Positions 6,197 through 29,776 of a DNA stretch of 29,776 nt are shown piece after piece (the first letter of the stretch is position 1; every line of letters begins with the position of its first letter). The notes under the pieces are model-generated. The model did no database searches and was not told the origin of the DNA. It saw nothing but the letters and a program-made list of their open reading frames with translations. The position numbers and the translations under genes were made by a program. This stretch comes from a virus. The DNA lies in the IMG/VR virus record IMGVR_UViG_3300008267_000244, positions 1-29,776 of that record. One strand, given 5' to 3'.

Positions 6197-6475
6197 ATGG
6201 CAAAGAAAAAGATTAAAATAGATACAGATAACTTCGATATGGATTTAGAAAAAGACGGAGTAAACTTGAAAGTAGATATTGACACTAAGAACGTGGATGT
6301 AAACATAGTTAAAGACGAATTGACGAAAGAATTTAACCTTGACGGTAAAAATATTGACATTCACGTGAAAAAATCCTTTGAAGGTTTGGAGGTGAAAGTC
6401 GATGCTAAAGGGGGATTCTTTAAATTATTGGCAAAAAGAATCGTTAAATTTGTTTTGAAAAGATTTTCTAAGTAG
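6197..6475 (+). CDS. Small protein with cationic amphipathic C-terminus; lysis-cassette candidate
   Basis: A 92-residue protein starting one base after the endolysin stop. Residues 5-70 are alternating charged and hydrophobic short strands rich in Asp, Lys and Val, with repeating units such as NLKVDIDTKNVDVNI. The last 20 residues (from FFKLLAKR to VLKRFSK) form a basic amphipathic segment with about seven Lys/Arg and no acids, like membrane-disrupting peptides. No family recognised. Its place after the endolysin and before the late terminator suggests a third lysis step; a spanin-like or disruptin-like outer-membrane role is speculation. It has no signal peptide or lipobox. Confidence 0.5.
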   Translation: MAKKKIKIDTDNFDMDLEKDGVNLKVDIDTKNVDVNIVKDELTKEFNLDGKNIDIHVKKSFEGLEVKVDAKGGFFKLLAKRIVKFVLKRFSK

Positions 6476-6511: not shown

Positions 6512-6541
6512 AACCTCTGTTTCGGCAGGGGTTTTTTATTT
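6512..6541 (+). terminator. Rho-independent terminator closing the late operon
   Basis: AACCTCTG (6512-6519) pairs with CAGGGGTT (6526-6533), 8 bp with one U:G pair and loop TTTCGG, followed by TTTTATTTTT. It separates the late genes from the early promoter at about 6600. Confidence 0.88.
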
Positions 6542-6574
6542 TTATGAAACTTTTTTTAAAATATTTCGTATAGA

Positions 6575-7572: not shown

Positions 7573-7703
7573 AAAAACGAATGAAGAAACGCAGAAACCT
7601 AACAAGGTTTAGACACCAACCTTTAATGGTAAGGAATTTAAGAGTAGAAAAATACTGGAAAAGAAAATTAATAAAAATTTGGATAAACAACGAGTTTGAT
7701 TAA
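7569..7703 (+). CDS. Highly basic 44-residue protein
   Basis: Coupled to the preceding gene by ATGA. About 18 of 44 residues are Lys or Arg (MKKRMKKRRNLTRFRHQP at the N-terminus), with two Trp near the C-terminus. The charge suggests nucleic-acid or ribosome binding, as in small phage takeover proteins; this is inference from composition. Its last codons overlap the promoter element TTTG at 7695 for the structured RNA downstream. Confidence 0.55.
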   Translation: MKKRMKKRRNLTRFRHQPLMVRNLRVEKYWKRKLIKIWINNEFD

Positions 7704-7722
7704 AAAATAATTATTATATTTG
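7695..7722 (+). promoter_or_regulatory. Promoter for the structured RNA, Bacteroidota type
   Basis: TTTG at 7695-7698, 16 bases, then TATATTTG at 7715-7722, a perfect match to TAnnTTTG. The expected start of transcription is about 5-8 bases downstream, close to 7727-7730, exactly where the hairpin RNA begins. Confidence 0.75.
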
Positions 7723-7726
7723 TAAA

Positions 7727-7820
7727 CAGTTCGGCTTCACACTATAGAACTGAAAAGAAGTTATTAAGCCTCTTAATGAATTTGGATGTGAAGCCCCAAA
7801 GGATTTAAGGGGTTTTTTTT
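7727..7820 (+). ncRNA. Structured leader or small RNA with loop that can pair with the terminator arm
   Basis: About 94 bases with three hairpin elements. Stem 1: CAGTTC (7727-7732) with GAACTG (7747-7752), 14-base loop. Stem 2: ATTAAG (7763-7768) with CTTAAT (7772-7777), loop CCT. Stem 3: GGCTTCACA in loop 1 (7733-7741) is the exact complement of TGTGAAGCC (7787-7795), which would form a 9-bp pseudoknot. The last bases of that segment are also the 5' arm of the terminator AAGCCCC (7791-7797) with GGGGTTT (7809-7815). Pseudoknot and terminator are therefore mutually exclusive. It may be an attenuator for the genes from 7865, or a free small RNA. No known class fits. A 10-codon frame starts at 7776. 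Confidence 0.6.
7791..7820 (+). terminator. Terminator of the structured RNA
   Basis: AAGCCCC pairs with GGGGTTT (four G:C, one G:U, two A:U; 11-base loop), followed by the rest of an 8-base T run at 7813-7820. The 5' arm overlaps the partner of the upstream loop, see 7727-7820. Confidence 0.7.
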
Positions 7821-7864
7821 ATGTTTAAAAGTTTACTGGTTTTCTGAAAACCTTTACAACCAAA

Positions 7865-8077
7865 ATGGTACAAATTATTTTTTATGGTTCTGAAAAATCA
7901 GAAACAACCGACCACGAATTAAGATGTTTTTGTAATACAAAGCAAGAAATTTTTATTGGGATAAAAGAAGAAGCAGCTCCTGAAATTTGGATTGCTTTAG
8001 ATAAAAAAACCGCAATAAGATTTAGTAAAGAATTACGTAAAGAAATAGCACTGATAGAAGATGAGAAAAACATTTAA
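7865..8077 (+). CDS. Small early protein, 70 residues, unknown function
   Basis: First gene behind the structured RNA. A 6-bp hairpin (GGTTTT 7838-7843 with AAAACC 7847-7852) lies in the leader close to its ATG. The product reads as two strand pairs and a C-terminal helix (KKTAIRFSKELRKEIALIED), with a CFCN at about residue 20. It overlaps the replication protein gene by 17 bases and may be coupled to it. No family recognised. Confidence 0.6.
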   Translation: MVQIIFYGSEKSETTDHELRCFCNTKQEIFIGIKEEAAPEIWIALDKKTAIRFSKELRKEIALIEDEKNI

Positions 8078-8672
8078 CTTTTATCGTAGCTATTGGGATG
8101 TAGCAAACGAATTAAACGACAAGGATCGTTTAGCATTTTACGATGCGTTAATGAAACGACAATTTACTGGAGTTGAAACTGATTTAGAAGGCATGGTTAA
8201 ATTCGCTTATCTTTCTCAAAAACATTCTATTGATAGACAAATTGAAGGTTATGAAAACAAAACTAAAGAGCCTTTACAAGACCCTACCGAAGGGGGTAAG
8301 CAAGGGGGTGTTGAAGCCCCTACGGTACAATTAAAAGAGAAAGAGAAAGAGAAAGAAGAATATACTAAAGTTCCTTTTCAGGAACGTGTAAATAAATTTT
8401 TAAATTGGTTTAATGCTGAATTTGTAAAACACGGAAAACCTCAAGCTAAATTTAGAACCTTAAACAACCAAACAGAAAATAATTTAAAAAAGTTATTGGA
8501 TAAATACACTACTGATGAATGGAGTTTAGCTTTTGAAAATATGATTAATAACGTTTGGGTAATTGAAAATAAAAATGCAACACCTGATCATTTTTTAAGA
8601 CTTGCTAATTTTGAAAAATACCTAAATGAAAATAGACCAAAAGAAAATAATTTTAAATTCGCATGGCAATGA
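8061..8672 (+). CDS. DUF6291-like replication protein (replisome organiser candidate)
   Basis: A 203-residue protein. Residues 1-65 (FNFYRSYWDVANELNDKDRL, then AFYDALMKRQF and FAYLSQKHSIDRQIEGY) match my memory of the DUF6291 domain found in phages just upstream of helicases. A low-complexity Lys/Glu linker (about 93-100) and a helical C-terminal half (VNKFLNWFNAEF to ENRPKE) follow, like DnaD-type replisome organisers that bring the helicase to the origin. The linker DNA (8286-8326) is unusually GC-rich and can form a hairpin. It is directly upstream of the helicase, with the stop in an ATGA junction. The domain call is fairly sure, the function inferred. Confidence 0.7.
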   Translation: MRKTFNFYRSYWDVANELNDKDRLAFYDALMKRQFTGVETDLEGMVKFAYLSQKHSIDRQIEGYENKTKEPLQDPTEGGKQGGVEAPTVQLKEKEKEKEEYTKVPFQERVNKFLNWFNAEFVKHGKPQAKFRTLNNQTENNLKKLLDKYTTDEWSLAFENMINNVWVIENKNATPDHFLRLANFEKYLNENRPKENNFKFAWQ

Positions 8673-9688
8673 TAGAAGGATTTAAAATAACAGAACAAGG
8701 TGATGTAGTAAGTAAGCTATATAAACACCGAGATAATTACCATAACAAAGGAAAGTATTTAGGCTTTGTTGAACTTCATAAATACTATTCAATGAGTTTA
8801 GGCAACTGTACTGATTGGACTGGATTTCCTCAAAGTGGAAAAACCCAGGTTTTAATGGAATGTTTAATTAATACTTCAAAGTTTTATGGTTGGAAACATT
8901 TAGTTTATTTTCCTGATGTTGGTAATACAACTGAAATTGTAGCGGATTTAATTCAGAAAAAGACGGGTAAAAGTTTTGATCCAAACGCAGAAAATGTAAT
9001 TACAGATTTAGAAATTACAATGGGAATGGAATGGGTATTAAACCATTTTAATATCATAACACGAAAAGACACAAAAGGAAAAATAACACCTAAGGAATTT
9101 TGGGAATGGGCTGTTGAATTAAAGTACGAAAAAGAATTACATACAGCTTCAATCGATAGCTGGAAAGATTTAAACCACGATTATGCAACGTATGGAGGAT
9201 ACGCACAATATTTAGAATATATTTTACCTTTGAGAAATTATTTAGCAGAAGAAAACAATTTACATTTTCACACAATTATACACCCTAAGTTGACTGAAAA
9301 AGAAAACGGAAAAAGAAACCCACCAAGTCCATACGATTTAAAGGGTGGTAGTGAATGGTATAATTCAGGAAAGTGCATGATAACAGTACACCGTGAAAAT
9401 CATGAATATAATGAAGCAGATATTATATTTCATAAAATAAAACCACGTTCAAATGGTGAAGTAGGTAATTTAAAAATAAAATTTGATAAAGCAACTTTAT
9501 GTTATTATTTTGATAGTTTAGAAAATAATAGATTTGTAAAAGTTTTTGCAAGTGAAGAAAAACAAGAAATTAAACCTAAACAACCCGAACAAATAATAGA
9601 TAAAGACGGACAATCAGCCTTAAATTGGGGTGGTGGTTTAATGTCAGCAAGTGAAAAGATTAGATTAGCAAACGAAAATCCATTTTAA
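8669..9688 (+). CDS. RecA-fold replicative helicase-like ATPase
   Basis: A 339-residue protein, start taken at the ATGA junction; an ATG two codons upstream (8663) is an alternative. It has Walker A GFPQSGKT near residue 53 and a Walker-B-like ASIDSW. A HTIIHPKLTEKENGKRNPPS segment leads to PYDLKGGSEWYNSGKCMITV, the pattern of DnaB/Twinkle-type phage helicases around their sensor and arginine-finger strands. Unlike DnaB, it lacks a large N-terminal primase-interacting domain, so a partner such as the protein encoded upstream (8061) may recruit it. I saw no separate primase or DNA polymerase gene, so replication must rely on the host for both. Confidence 0.75.
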   Translation: MIEGFKITEQGDVVSKLYKHRDNYHNKGKYLGFVELHKYYSMSLGNCTDWTGFPQSGKTQVLMECLINTSKFYGWKHLVYFPDVGNTTEIVADLIQKKTGKSFDPNAENVITDLEITMGMEWVLNHFNIITRKDTKGKITPKEFWEWAVELKYEKELHTASIDSWKDLNHDYATYGGYAQYLEYILPLRNYLAEENNLHFHTIIHPKLTEKENGKRNPPSPYDLKGGSEWYNSGKCMITVHRENHEYNEADIIFHKIKPRSNGEVGNLKIKFDKATLCYYFDSLENNRFVKVFASEEKQEIKPKQPEQIIDKDGQSALNWGGGLMSASEKIRLANENPF

Positions 9689-11727: not shown

Positions 11728-11757
11728 TTGTTATATTAAAAATTATTATTAAATTTG
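11728..11757 (+). promoter_or_regulatory. Promoter B (recombination genes), Bacteroidota type
   Basis: TTG at 11728-11730, 19 bases, then TAAATTTG at 11750-11757, matching TAnnTTTG. The leader then carries AAATTAAACAAAG (11761-11773), 5 bases before the ATG at 11779, the box shared with promoters A and C. Confidence 0.8.
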
Positions 11758-11778
11758 TAGAAATTAAACAAAGTAATT

Positions 11779-12300
11779 ATGAAACATTTATTTAAAAGTC
11801 TGGCAGCGTTCCAGCAAGAGGTGAAGGTAATTCACAAAGCAACTCAAGGTTACGGATATTCTTATTCGGATTTACCAAAGATATTTAGCGAGATTAATCC
11901 ATTGTTACAAAAACACGGATTAGGCTTTACGCAACTAATCAATTCAAAAGACGGATTGAACTATCTTAAAACTGTTTTATTTCATATTGAAAGCGGAGAA
12001 ATGATAGACTCTGAAACATTGATACCTTACGTACAATTAAAAGGCATGAATGACTATCAGTCTTTTGGATCAGGTGTTACGTATTTTCGTAGATACTGTT
12101 TGAGCTCAATTCTTGGATTAGTAACTGACAAAGACACGGACGCCTCAGGTGAACAGATTAAACCAAAGAAACCAAAGATTGAAAACGATAGGCTTATGAA
12201 AGCTATTGCAGCGGTTAAAGCTGGTAATTATGAATTGGCTGATATACCGTTGAACTTTGATTTAACTGATGAGCAAATAGAAATACTTGGAAAGGTATGA
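11779..12300 (+). CDS. ERF-family single-strand annealing protein
   Basis: A 173-residue protein. The ERF signature is plain: GYGYSYSDLPKIFSEINPLL (24-43), KHGLGFTQ (45-52), and MNDYQSFGSGVTYFRRYCLS followed by SILGLVTDKDTDASG. Members coat single-stranded DNA and anneal complementary strands, the Beta-like half of a two-component phage recombinase. The partner exonuclease follows in an ATGA overlap. The C-terminal 45 residues are a Lys-rich linker and helix. It has its own promoter and the shared A-rich leader box, suggesting strong early expression. Confidence 0.92.
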   Translation: MKHLFKSLAAFQQEVKVIHKATQGYGYSYSDLPKIFSEINPLLQKHGLGFTQLINSKDGLNYLKTVLFHIESGEMIDSETLIPYVQLKGMNDYQSFGSGVTYFRRYCLSSILGLVTDKDTDASGEQIKPKKPKIENDRLMKAIAAVKAGNYELADIPLNFDLTDEQIEILGKV

Positions 12301-14814: not shown

Positions 14815-14847
14815 TTGTTTGTAATTAAAATAATTATATTAATTTTG
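14815..14847 (+). promoter_or_regulatory. Promoter C, Bacteroidota type, with shared 5'-UTR box
   Basis: TTGTTTG (TTG at 14815-14817 or TTTG at 14818-14821), 18-22 bases, then TAATTTTG at 14840-14847. The leader has AATAATTAAACAAAG (14852-14866), 5 bases before the ATG at 14872. It is the last recognisable promoter before the sigma factor, methyltransferase and terminase genes. Confidence 0.78.
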
Positions 14848-14871
14848 AAGAAATAATTAAACAAAGCGTAT

Positions 14872-15243
14872 ATGAAAACTATTGATTTTAACAGAAACTG
14901 GAAGTTAATTAACTTAGACACAAACAAGGATAAAGGTTATTTTGACCTTGACTGCGGTAAGTTTGGAGTAATGTTTTTTGAATTTGACATTGACTTTAAT
15001 GTAGATTCAGATTTTGAATTTGAAAGCGTTGATGTTAAGTTAAGCAGTTACGATTGGGATTGTGATGGATTGAAAAGTGGAATGTTAAACAACAGAAACA
15101 CGAAATTAATTTGTGAAAAGTTAGAAGAAAGAATCTCAAATGATCCTGAATCATGGGGATTTGATAGTGAACAGTTAAGATACGAAGCACAATTAGATTT
15201 TGAAACAGAAAGAGAAATTGCGTATTTTAATGAAAGGTGTTAA
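14872..15243 (+). CDS. Acidic protein, unknown function; DNA-mimic candidate
   Basis: A 123-residue protein with about 29 Asp/Glu against 15 Lys/Arg, so strongly acidic. Residues 20-65 alternate aromatic and acidic residues (FFEFDIDFNVDSDFEFESVD, then SSYDWDCDG). It is the first gene behind promoter C and has the shared A-rich leader box, so it is probably made early and strongly. Acidic proteins with alternating Asp/aromatic strands include DNA mimics that block restriction or other DNA-binding host enzymes. That role is only inferred from composition. No family recognised. Confidence 0.6.
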   Translation: MKTIDFNRNWKLINLDTNKDKGYFDLDCGKFGVMFFEFDIDFNVDSDFEFESVDVKLSSYDWDCDGLKSGMLNNRNTKLICEKLEERISNDPESWGFDSEQLRYEAQLDFETEREIAYFNERC

Positions 15244-15252
15244 CTTTGGTGA

Positions 15253-15462
15253 ATGACAAGGATTTTAGAGATTTTAGTATTACCGTTATTTGCAACTCTG
15301 TTCTTTGTGGATAGGGTTGTTTTGCTTTTTATGTGGAATGAAAGCGGACATAGGTTTGGTAAGTGGTTGTATAATGAAACGCTGATGTTGAATAGTGTTA
15401 TTCGTGTTTTTATATTTATGACTGTATTTAGTTTTGTGTTTTTATTTGCGATAAGTGAATGA
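15253..15462 (+). CDS. Small membrane protein with two membrane segments
   Basis: A 69-residue protein: membrane segment 1 at about residues 5-27 (LEILVLPLFATLFFVDRVVL), a polar loop (MWNESGHRFGKWLYNET), and segment 2 at about 49-67 (IRVFIFMTVFSFVFLFAI). It overlaps the sigma-factor gene by 8 bases. It could anchor a regulator of the sigma factor, act in superinfection exclusion, or be a second holin; nothing discriminates. Confidence 0.6.
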   Translation: MTRILEILVLPLFATLFFVDRVVLLFMWNESGHRFGKWLYNETLMLNSVIRVFIFMTVFSFVFLFAISE

Positions 15463-15994
15463 AAAATTCTTATACCATTTATATGAGCACCACAATGAGT
15501 GGGTTAAGATTGTACGCAACTTTGGAGAGCAATTTTACGCAGAAGACATAGTTCAGGAAATGTATCTTAAATTAGCAAAACACGAAAACAACGAAAGGTT
15601 TTACCGTAATGGAACTATTTATAAAGGCTTTGTTTGGATTGTACTTAGGAATATGTTTTACGATTACGAGAAAGCAAAGAATAAGCTGGAGAAAGTAAGT
15701 TTAACAGAGGCAATTCAAATAAAAGACGATGGAGAGCCATACGAAAAAACGAACGCACAAACAATCATAGACATTAAAATATCTGAAACAATAAACAACT
15801 GGCATTGGTACGATCAAATGTTATTTAAACTTTACAGAGATACAGGATATAGCACAAGGCAAATAGAGAAAGAAACAGGTATTAGTTTTAAGAGTGTTTG
15901 GGCAACTTTAAAAGAATGTAAAGAGTCTTTAAAGAAAGAAGTAGGTGAAGAATACCAAGATTATTTAAACGAAGATTTTGAATTAATAAAATAA
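15455..15994 (+). CDS. Sigma-70-like (ECF-type) RNA polymerase sigma factor
   Basis: A 179-residue protein with a GTG start, the only start in frame near the 5' end (the nearby ATG at 15459 is in another frame). Region 2-like: residues about 14-75 with FYAEDIVQEMYLKLAKH and a FVWIVLRNMFYDYEKAK helix. A spacer with acid residues follows. Region 4-like: about 113-160, with DQMLFKLYRDTGYSTRQIEK, then ETGISFKSVWATLKECKESL as a helix-turn-helix. Domain order and size are those of ECF sigma factors. It lies at the boundary between early genes and the methyltransferase/terminase block, so it probably directs host polymerase to late promoters, which I could not identify. Confidence 0.75.
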   Translation: MNEKFLYHLYEHHNEWVKIVRNFGEQFYAEDIVQEMYLKLAKHENNERFYRNGTIYKGFVWIVLRNMFYDYEKAKNKLEKVSLTEAIQIKDDGEPYEKTNAQTIIDIKISETINNWHWYDQMLFKLYRDTGYSTRQIEKETGISFKSVWATLKECKESLKKEVGEEYQDYLNEDFELIK

Positions 15995-29108: not shown

Positions 29109-29776
29109 ATGCCAACAACAACTTCAATCACAACTACTTACGCTGGTGAATTTTCAGGTAAGTATATTGCAGCAGCTTTATTGTCTGCTCCAACTTTAGA
29201 AAAAGGCGGTATGACTATCATGCCAAACGTGAAGTACAAACAGGTAATCAAAAGAGTAGCTACTGATGACATTATCAAAAATGCAACTTGTGATTATGAC
29301 CCTACTTCAACAATTACATTAACTGAAAGAGTTCTTCAACCAGAATCTTTCCAAGTTAACTTGACTTTGTGTAAATCAGATTTCCGTTCAGATTGGGATG
29401 CTATCCAAATGGGTTACTCTGCATTTGACGTATTACCTAAGTCTTTTGCAGATTTCTTAATCGCACACGCTGCTGAGAAAGTAGCTGCTGGAATGGAAAC
29501 TTCTATTTGGCAAGGTGTTAACGCAACTGCTGGTCAGTTCGCTGGTATCATGACACAATTAACAACTGATGCTTCTTTACCTTCTGCTCAAGAGGTTGCT
29601 GGAACTACTGTTACTGCTGCTAACGTAATTACAGAGCTTGGTAAAATAGTTGATGCTTGTCCTGCTGCTCTTTATGGAAAAGAAGATTTGAAAATCTATG
29701 TTTCTTCTAACATTTACAGAGCTTACGTTCGTGCATTGGGTGGATTTGCTGCTGCTGGAGTAGGTGCTAACGGTTA
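29109..29776 (+). CDS. Major capsid protein, 5' part (continues at contig start)
   Basis: The N-terminal 222 codons of the 316-residue capsid subunit; the rest is at 1-397 after removing the 114-base overlap. It begins MPTTTSITTTYAGEFSGKYI, continues with a LSAPTLEKGGMTIMPNVKY segment, a CDYDPTSTITLTERVLQPES strand region and helix FADFLIAHAAEKVAAGMETS. N-arm, long spine helix and an A-domain rich in Gly/Ala fit an HK97 fold. It follows the scaffold with an A-rich leader (nine A before the ATG) that favours strong initiation in Bacteroidota. Confidence 0.85.
   Translation, partial: MPTTTSITTTYAGEFSGKYIAAALLSAPTLEKGGMTIMPNVKYKQVIKRVATDDIIKNATCDYDPTSTITLTERVLQPESFQVNLTLCKSDFRSDWDAIQMGYSAFDVLPKSFADFLIAHAAEKVAAGMETSIWQGVNATAGQFAGIMTQLTTDASLPSAQEVAGTTVTAANVITELGKIVDACPAALYGKEDLKIYVSSNIYRAYVRALGGFAAAGVGANG
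29663..29776. repeat. Terminal direct repeat, right copy
   Basis: Identical to bases 1-114. See the left copy; it marks circular closure within the capsid gene. Confidence 0.95.

Follow-up and report, generated by a model that had tools for sequence, protein, structure and literature searches.

A structured RNA ahead of early genes in Flavobacteriaceae phages, with a 5′ hairpin loop predicted to kiss the loop of its own terminator

Positions 7727-7820 (plus strand) of the window, by which the whole 29,776-base viral record IMGVR_UViG_3300008267_000244 is meant and whose numbering is used here, appear to encode a member of an unrecognised family of structured RNAs about 94 bases long. The favoured explanation, held at a probability of roughly 0.6, is that this RNA is a cis-acting, promoter-proximal leader of the attenuator type, belonging to an early phage operon. 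The nearest annotated relatives of the window phage, by protein comparison, are Flavobacterium phages. Since an exact repeat of 114 bases occupies both ends of the record (1-114 and 29663-29776), it is probably a complete genome. No further copy of the element was found within the window.

The element is preceded by a sigma-A-type promoter (7695-7722, plus strand), recognised from the sequence and its homologues, with TTTG at 7695-7698 (-33) and TATATTTG at 7715-7722 (-7). The promoter consensus and spacing were taken from PMC6847099 and PMC9723704; the box is placed at -12 to -5 (PMC9723704). Since the G of TAnnTTTG sits at -5 in Flavobacterium (PMC6847099), the predicted transcript start is 7727, the first base of hairpin P1. 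Hairpin P1 (7727-7752), which would form the very 5′ terminus of the RNA, pairs CAGTTC (7727-7732) with GAACTG (7747-7752) and closes a loop of 14 bases, GGCTTCACACTATA (7733-7746). It is followed by an A/U-rich linker (7753-7765), unpaired in the model, with a conserved AAG...TTATT whose columns are 93-100% conserved. The terminator hairpin P2 (7766-7815) has an outer stem (AAGCCTCTTAA, 7766-7776, with TTAAGGGGTTT, 7805-7815), an internal loop (TGAA, 7777-7780, opposite GGAT, 7801-7804), an inner stem (7781-7785 with 7796-7800) and an apical loop (7786-7795). A U-tract of eight T (7813-7820) ends the element, its first three bases being also able to pair in the outer stem. The P1 loop contains kissing strand 1, GGCTTCACA (7733-7741), and the P2 loop contains kissing strand 2, TGTGAAGCC (7787-7795), which is its exact reverse complement; as a free duplex this kissing helix has a predicted energy of -13.9 kcal/mol. 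The minimum-energy fold of the window segment yields both P1 and P2, and both hairpins covary. The promoter box, P1 with its 14-base loop, the complementary partner and the T8 ending at 7820 had all been pointed out in an earlier sequence-only reading of this DNA, and each is present as it described.

Complementarity between two short stretches is by itself not rare in such AT-rich sequence: 9-base complements 40-70 bases apart number 4 in the window vs about 10 per Markov shuffle. A search of 300 window shuffles for the full arrangement (a promoter, a P1 with 5 bp or more, a terminator hairpin whose loop complements that of P1, and 6 T or more) turned up a single instance. Because the lone complement is common in shuffles and the fold energy of the element is unremarkable (z of -1.4 to -1.7), it is the homologues that settle whether the element is real. 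Chance was rejected as an explanation since the whole arrangement and its homologues, unlike the 9-base complement, are rare.

The homologues closest in form to the window element are called type I here, the type names being our own, and 99 distinct type I sequences make up alignment A3. Standard pairs fill 98.7% of its pair cells vs 69.4% in shuffles, and sliding the partner by 1-3 columns lowers the value to 33.7-49.7%. Both sides change in 25 of the 28 modelled pairs. These comprise all five modelled pairs of P1 (99.8% of cells paired), 14 of 15 in the P2 stems and six of eight in the kissing helix, the remaining two being nearly invariant. There are 28 forms of the kissing helix, of which 27 pair fully in register and one with a one-base shift. 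When all column pairs were ranked by mutual information, the 22 strongest came from this one fold, six of them being kissing pairs, and no alternative helix was seen to covary among the 99 sequences. The compensatory changes between 7733-7741 and 7787-7795 for which the earlier reading had proposed a covariance search are thus present in the relatives. P1 and P2 were used in fitting A3 and the kissing helix was not. Most loci were retrieved blind to the loop partner, by protein synteny, by a partner-blind pattern or by a covariance model whose structure left out the kissing helix, and a minority came in through a pattern requiring both loop strands. The first alignment, A1, was chosen partly for complementarity; partner-blind loci dominate the final one.

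Besides the linker motif, the nearly invariant positions are the last two kissing pairs (AC/GT), the P1-loop bases A and ATA that follow them, and one A preceding kissing strand 2. The TAnnTTTG box is present in 97 of the 99 homologues, most often five bases ahead of P1, and the U-tract is kept in every one (at least 5 T among the 8 bases past the stem). Judged by this alignment, evolution appears to have kept the shape of the RNA while its sequence was rewritten dozens of times.

The element also occurs in other forms. Eighty loci were fetched by protein, 13 of which had too little upstream sequence, leaving 67 testable syntenic loci. By hand count these hold 48 complete and two truncated type I elements, 12 of type II and three of type III; none was found in the other two (L075 and L079). 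Visual inspection and a script, rather than a calibrated model, served to recognise types II and III and the FCV-1 form. In type II, whose kissing helices were likewise compared by eye and script, a P1 loop of 6-8 bases (GGGCAG, AGGCAG, GTGCAG, GATGCAG, AATGCAG, GAGCAG, AGTTACGG or AGTAGTGC) pairs with the P2 loop, and the internal loop AGTA/GAA resembles a sarcin-ricin or loop-E motif. In type III (L008, L022) the kissing strands are ACAACC, in the P1 loop, and GGTTGT, and the U-tract is missing; its leaders lie upstream of position 1159 in L008 and of 4001 in L022/L023, and ACAACC appears once more directly at the start codon. The variants keep the architecture with unrelated loops.

Several named phages carry the element. 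In the Flavobacterium phage FCV-1.01 (MT431535.1) an element with the loops AAGTAGAGAG/CTCTCTAC lies at 35.78-35.88 kb, and one of type II at 40.27-40.35 kb precedes a NUMOD4/HNH endonuclease gene. Two elements are found in the Tenacibaculum phage Gundel_1, one of type I in the Flavobacterium phage FL-1 (18.93 kb) and one that is type II-like in the Flavobacterium phage 11b (33.63 kb); types I and II occur together in L026, L224, L315 and L317. A promoter-linked detector gave two matches in Gundel_1, two in FCV-1.01 and one in the window, vs one, one and none, respectively, on ten shuffles of each. In Fpv5, 6H, P12024L and the first half of crAss001 it gave nothing or matches judged to be chance. 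FL-1 has a further candidate kissing leader, GGGCTGAA/TTCAGCCC, at 3.70 kb (L350:3702-3801), inside an intergenic region roughly 1 kb long that follows the terminase gene. Free-standing NUMOD4/HNH genes with their own promoter and a type II leader are seen at L016:3237-3324 (+), L224:3521-3608 (+), L317:5857-5944 (-) and L337:6148-6234 (+; FCV-1.01), and gene and leader look as if they travel together. In L084, L093, L094, L098 and L100, which are viral contigs of no relation, an inverted repeat GGCTTCACA...TGTGAAGCC also recurs; it has a different layout and was excluded from the family by eye.

Neither the window nor 18 loci covering all variants had a match in Rfam 15 at the gathering threshold, and a permissive scan of 7600-7900 gave sub-threshold matches only, in keeping with the earlier opinion that no known RNA class fits. 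Among Flavobacteriaceae genomes one of 397 matched, on a short contig (strict filters were applied above 40 genomes). A further 16 genomes yielded a single weak match, and the detector saw no kissing fold there. A host RNA was considered and rejected: a pattern scan of genome contigs gave at least 118 stretches, and the matches listed looked like chance on inspection. No conserved reading frame of a leader peptide was seen by eye.

In the window the first downstream ORF (7865-8077, plus strand) begins 44 bases past the U-tract and encodes 70 amino acids with no family found. It is followed on the same strand by a DUF6291 protein (8061-8672; Pfam), presumably a replication gene and the first gene common to most homologous loci, and by a 341-residue helicase-like protein (8663-9688; PHROG 5482), which matches primase/helicase families weakly and serves as the synteny anchor. 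The DUF6291 protein forms one family across 86 loci, and it and the helicase-like protein are the usual downstream genes of type I. Type I also stands before a BT4734-like-N protein (e.g. L316) and before an AntA/KilAC antirepressor (Gundel_1), and type II precedes NUMOD4/HNH endonuclease and other genes. In all 99 type I elements an ORF of at least 25 codons begins on the same strand no more than 50 bases downstream of the stem (16-35 bases in 87), and only one has a TAnnTTTG box within 40 bases past the stem. The ORF nearest to the element on its upstream side shares its strand in 87 of 100 loci, and 52 of those 87 form one family resembling the C-terminal helix-turn-helix of DnaA, with a Pfam score just below the cut-off.

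The remaining two intergenic promoters of the sigma-A type in the window that have a -33 element (11750-11779 and 14840-14872) lead to short, similar 5′ UTRs (AATTAAACAAAG) with no hairpin leader. The ORF at 15455-15994 resembles a small sigma factor by the appearance of its sequence, and the record of the related phage P12024L annotates a protein with sigma-70 region 2. A strong terminator-like hairpin, AACCTCTGTTTCGGCAGGGGTT (6512-6543), followed by a T-rich stretch, lies past an ORF ending at 6475.

In a cis-acting leader, RNA polymerase of the host type would transcribe the element from its own promoter, starting at P1. Most transcripts would end at the U-tract and the early genes downstream would be expressed by read-through, the kissing fold setting how often the terminator stops the polymerase. 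A protein, a ligand or the state of the polymerase may shift this balance, if anything does. We infer the transcription start, the termination at the U-tract and the dependence on read-through from the sequence. A role in cis is favoured because the element lies at a fixed distance of about 25 bases from a start codon on the same strand, with no promoter between. Furthermore, the element is retained before different downstream genes, and other early operons use the architecture too, with sequences that are unrelated. The two testable loci in which no element was found (L075 and L079) speak against the leader. As in an attenuator, a promoter, a leader and a G+C-rich hairpin with a U-tract lie ahead of a gene. 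No antiterminator pairing covaries among all column pairs, and the one proposed by the sequence-only reading pairs at shuffle level; since no alternative fold covaries, a switch made of RNA only has no direct support. The lack of an antiterminator fold may be compatible with read-through that depends on a factor.

In part of the family the loop may have a third partner. The P1-loop stretch recurs no more than 30 bases before the start codon in six of 18 elements outside type I (L043, L047, L053, L054, L008 and L022), which have different loops, each with its matching copy, vs about 0.2 expected from background hexamer frequencies, the 18 elements being not fully independent. Since the loop sequence recurs at the start codon, the P2 loop would be able to pair with either the P1 loop or the start region. 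The terminator loop of this subset would have a choice between the P1 loop and the second copy near the start codon, and the kissing fold would also govern access to that codon, an indication that translation is controlled in cis in some members. Such a copy is missing from almost every type I element, that of the window included: a 7-base copy is found in three of 99 (L294, L304, L333) vs about 0.2 expected, and the repeat was therefore rejected as a general type I trait.

A free small RNA gene, acting in trans, is the most serious of the other explanations, and we consider it unlikely rather than implausible. The promoter, the compact RNA of about 94 bases locked by its kissing loops and the strong terminator would then form a transcription unit whose product has its target, a protein or an RNA, elsewhere; its siting before early genes would serve only early expression. 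The element's own promoter and the U-tract in all 99 type I homologues agree with this, as do conserved unpaired bases like those of a binding site and the occurrence of type I before non-homologous genes. A gene of this kind should be independent of its neighbour, yet the element always lies at a fixed short distance before an ORF on the same strand (99 of 99) and a promoter hardly ever intervenes; type III, moreover, has no U-tract, and some elements have the start-codon copies. Sequence alone does not separate an attenuator from a free RNA, the two outcomes that the earlier reading had put forward, but the fixed distance and the lack of an intervening promoter favour the cis-acting leader.

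A riboswitch is improbable. Its pocket would be formed by ACA..ATA of the P1 loop, the AAG...TTATT linker and TGAA/GGAT, closed by the kissing helix, and the binding of a ligand would alter termination. The near-invariance of these unpaired bases beside freely covarying helices would suit a ligand site, and the terminator is integral to the fold. However, the other variants have the same architecture with different loops and internal loops, the downstream genes have no common metabolic theme, no switching partner structure covaries, and the conserved A bases may simply make tertiary contacts.

In the model of the sequence-only reading, the P1 loop pairs with the 5′ arm of a terminator AAGCCCC/GGGGTTT and so prevents termination; these base pairs are possible in the window, but across the homologues the helix AAGCCCC/GGGGTTT pairs in 63.0% of cells vs 62.5% in shuffles, without covariation, and the model is very improbable. 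The 5′ arm that is conserved is AAGCCTCTTAA (7766-7776) and not AAGCCCC. The partner is in fact the apical loop of the conserved terminator hairpin, and the loop pairing and the terminator are conserved in the same molecules, within the single fold that holds the 22 strongest covarying column pairs. Since the partner sits in the terminator's loop, pairing it need not undo the terminator; kissing and termination appear compatible on paper, and the kissing helix may affect the folding of the terminator kinetically. What survives of the attenuator or riboswitch logic first proposed is a structured, promoter-driven and terminator-ended leader before replication genes; the pairing that would undo the terminator does not. 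A primer or replication-control RNA linked to an origin, to which the DnaA-like family directly upstream (52 of 87 loci, just below the curated Pfam cut-off) and the replication-type genes downstream might point, has just as little to recommend it, since the architecture is also found ahead of HNH endonuclease and antirepressor genes, some genomes have two copies, and a terminator ends it.

A structured leader with a terminator is of a known general kind, and the cis-acting leader favoured here would belong to it. The recurrence, with unrelated sequences, of a 5′-terminal hairpin that kisses the loop of its own terminator matches nothing in Rfam, and the titles and abstracts of the open-licence literature gave no description of such kissing leader RNAs. 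Because the shape is kept despite repeated rewriting of the sequence, the RNA is probably a new means of controlling early phage genes. A wider proposal, to which we would give somewhat less than even odds, is a new class of regulatory RNA at several early operons of Flavobacteriaceae phages, in which the loop of a 5′ hairpin kisses that of the terminator in the same transcript, while in some members the terminator loop may capture the start-codon region instead; this three-partner switch would set read-through and translation, the loops being rewritten and the shape kept. The element would then be a compact means of control in wide use, with very strong covariation, and would show an RNA architecture conserved across nearly complete turnover of sequence. 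Bacteroidota mRNAs have no Shine-Dalgarno sequences (PMC6847099), and little was found in the open-licence literature on the timing of early genes in their phages. The element might also become a part for gene control in Bacteroidota, and since it is present in the cultured phages FCV-1.01, FL-1, 11b and Gundel_1, it can be tested at once.

Each known system shares some of these features. In phage lambda, the promoter pR′ is followed by the 6S RNA and the terminator tR′, and the Q protein acts at the promoter to control the late operon. Like the element, it combines a phage promoter with an immediate terminator, a short default RNA and genes reached by read-through; unlike the element, it depends on a protein, Q, at the promoter, has no conserved kissing fold and serves late rather than replication genes. 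The put RNAs of phage HK022 act on the polymerase so that it passes later terminators. They too are cis-acting two-hairpin RNAs near the start of an early phage transcript, but the layout differs, since the second hairpin of the element is the terminator itself and its loops kiss. The purine, preQ1 and SAM-II riboswitches fold through loop-loop contacts or pseudoknots, and share with the element a leader RNA, a tertiary helix mediated by a loop and conserved unpaired bases; the element differs in having no Rfam match, no three-way junction, no H pseudoknot of the preQ1 type and no separate expression platform. In the pRNA of phage phi29, loops pair between molecules to build the packaging ring. 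It is likewise a phage RNA with two complementary loops, but the element, which may also dimerise, lies before early genes, and the gene context (replication, antirepressor, HNH) gives no support to a packaging role of this type. The rep leaders of the plasmids pT181, pIP501 and ColE1 are controlled by antisense RNA. These also have kissing loops upstream of replication genes, some of them working through a terminator, but the plasmid leaders pair two separate RNAs, whereas the element has both loops in one strand.
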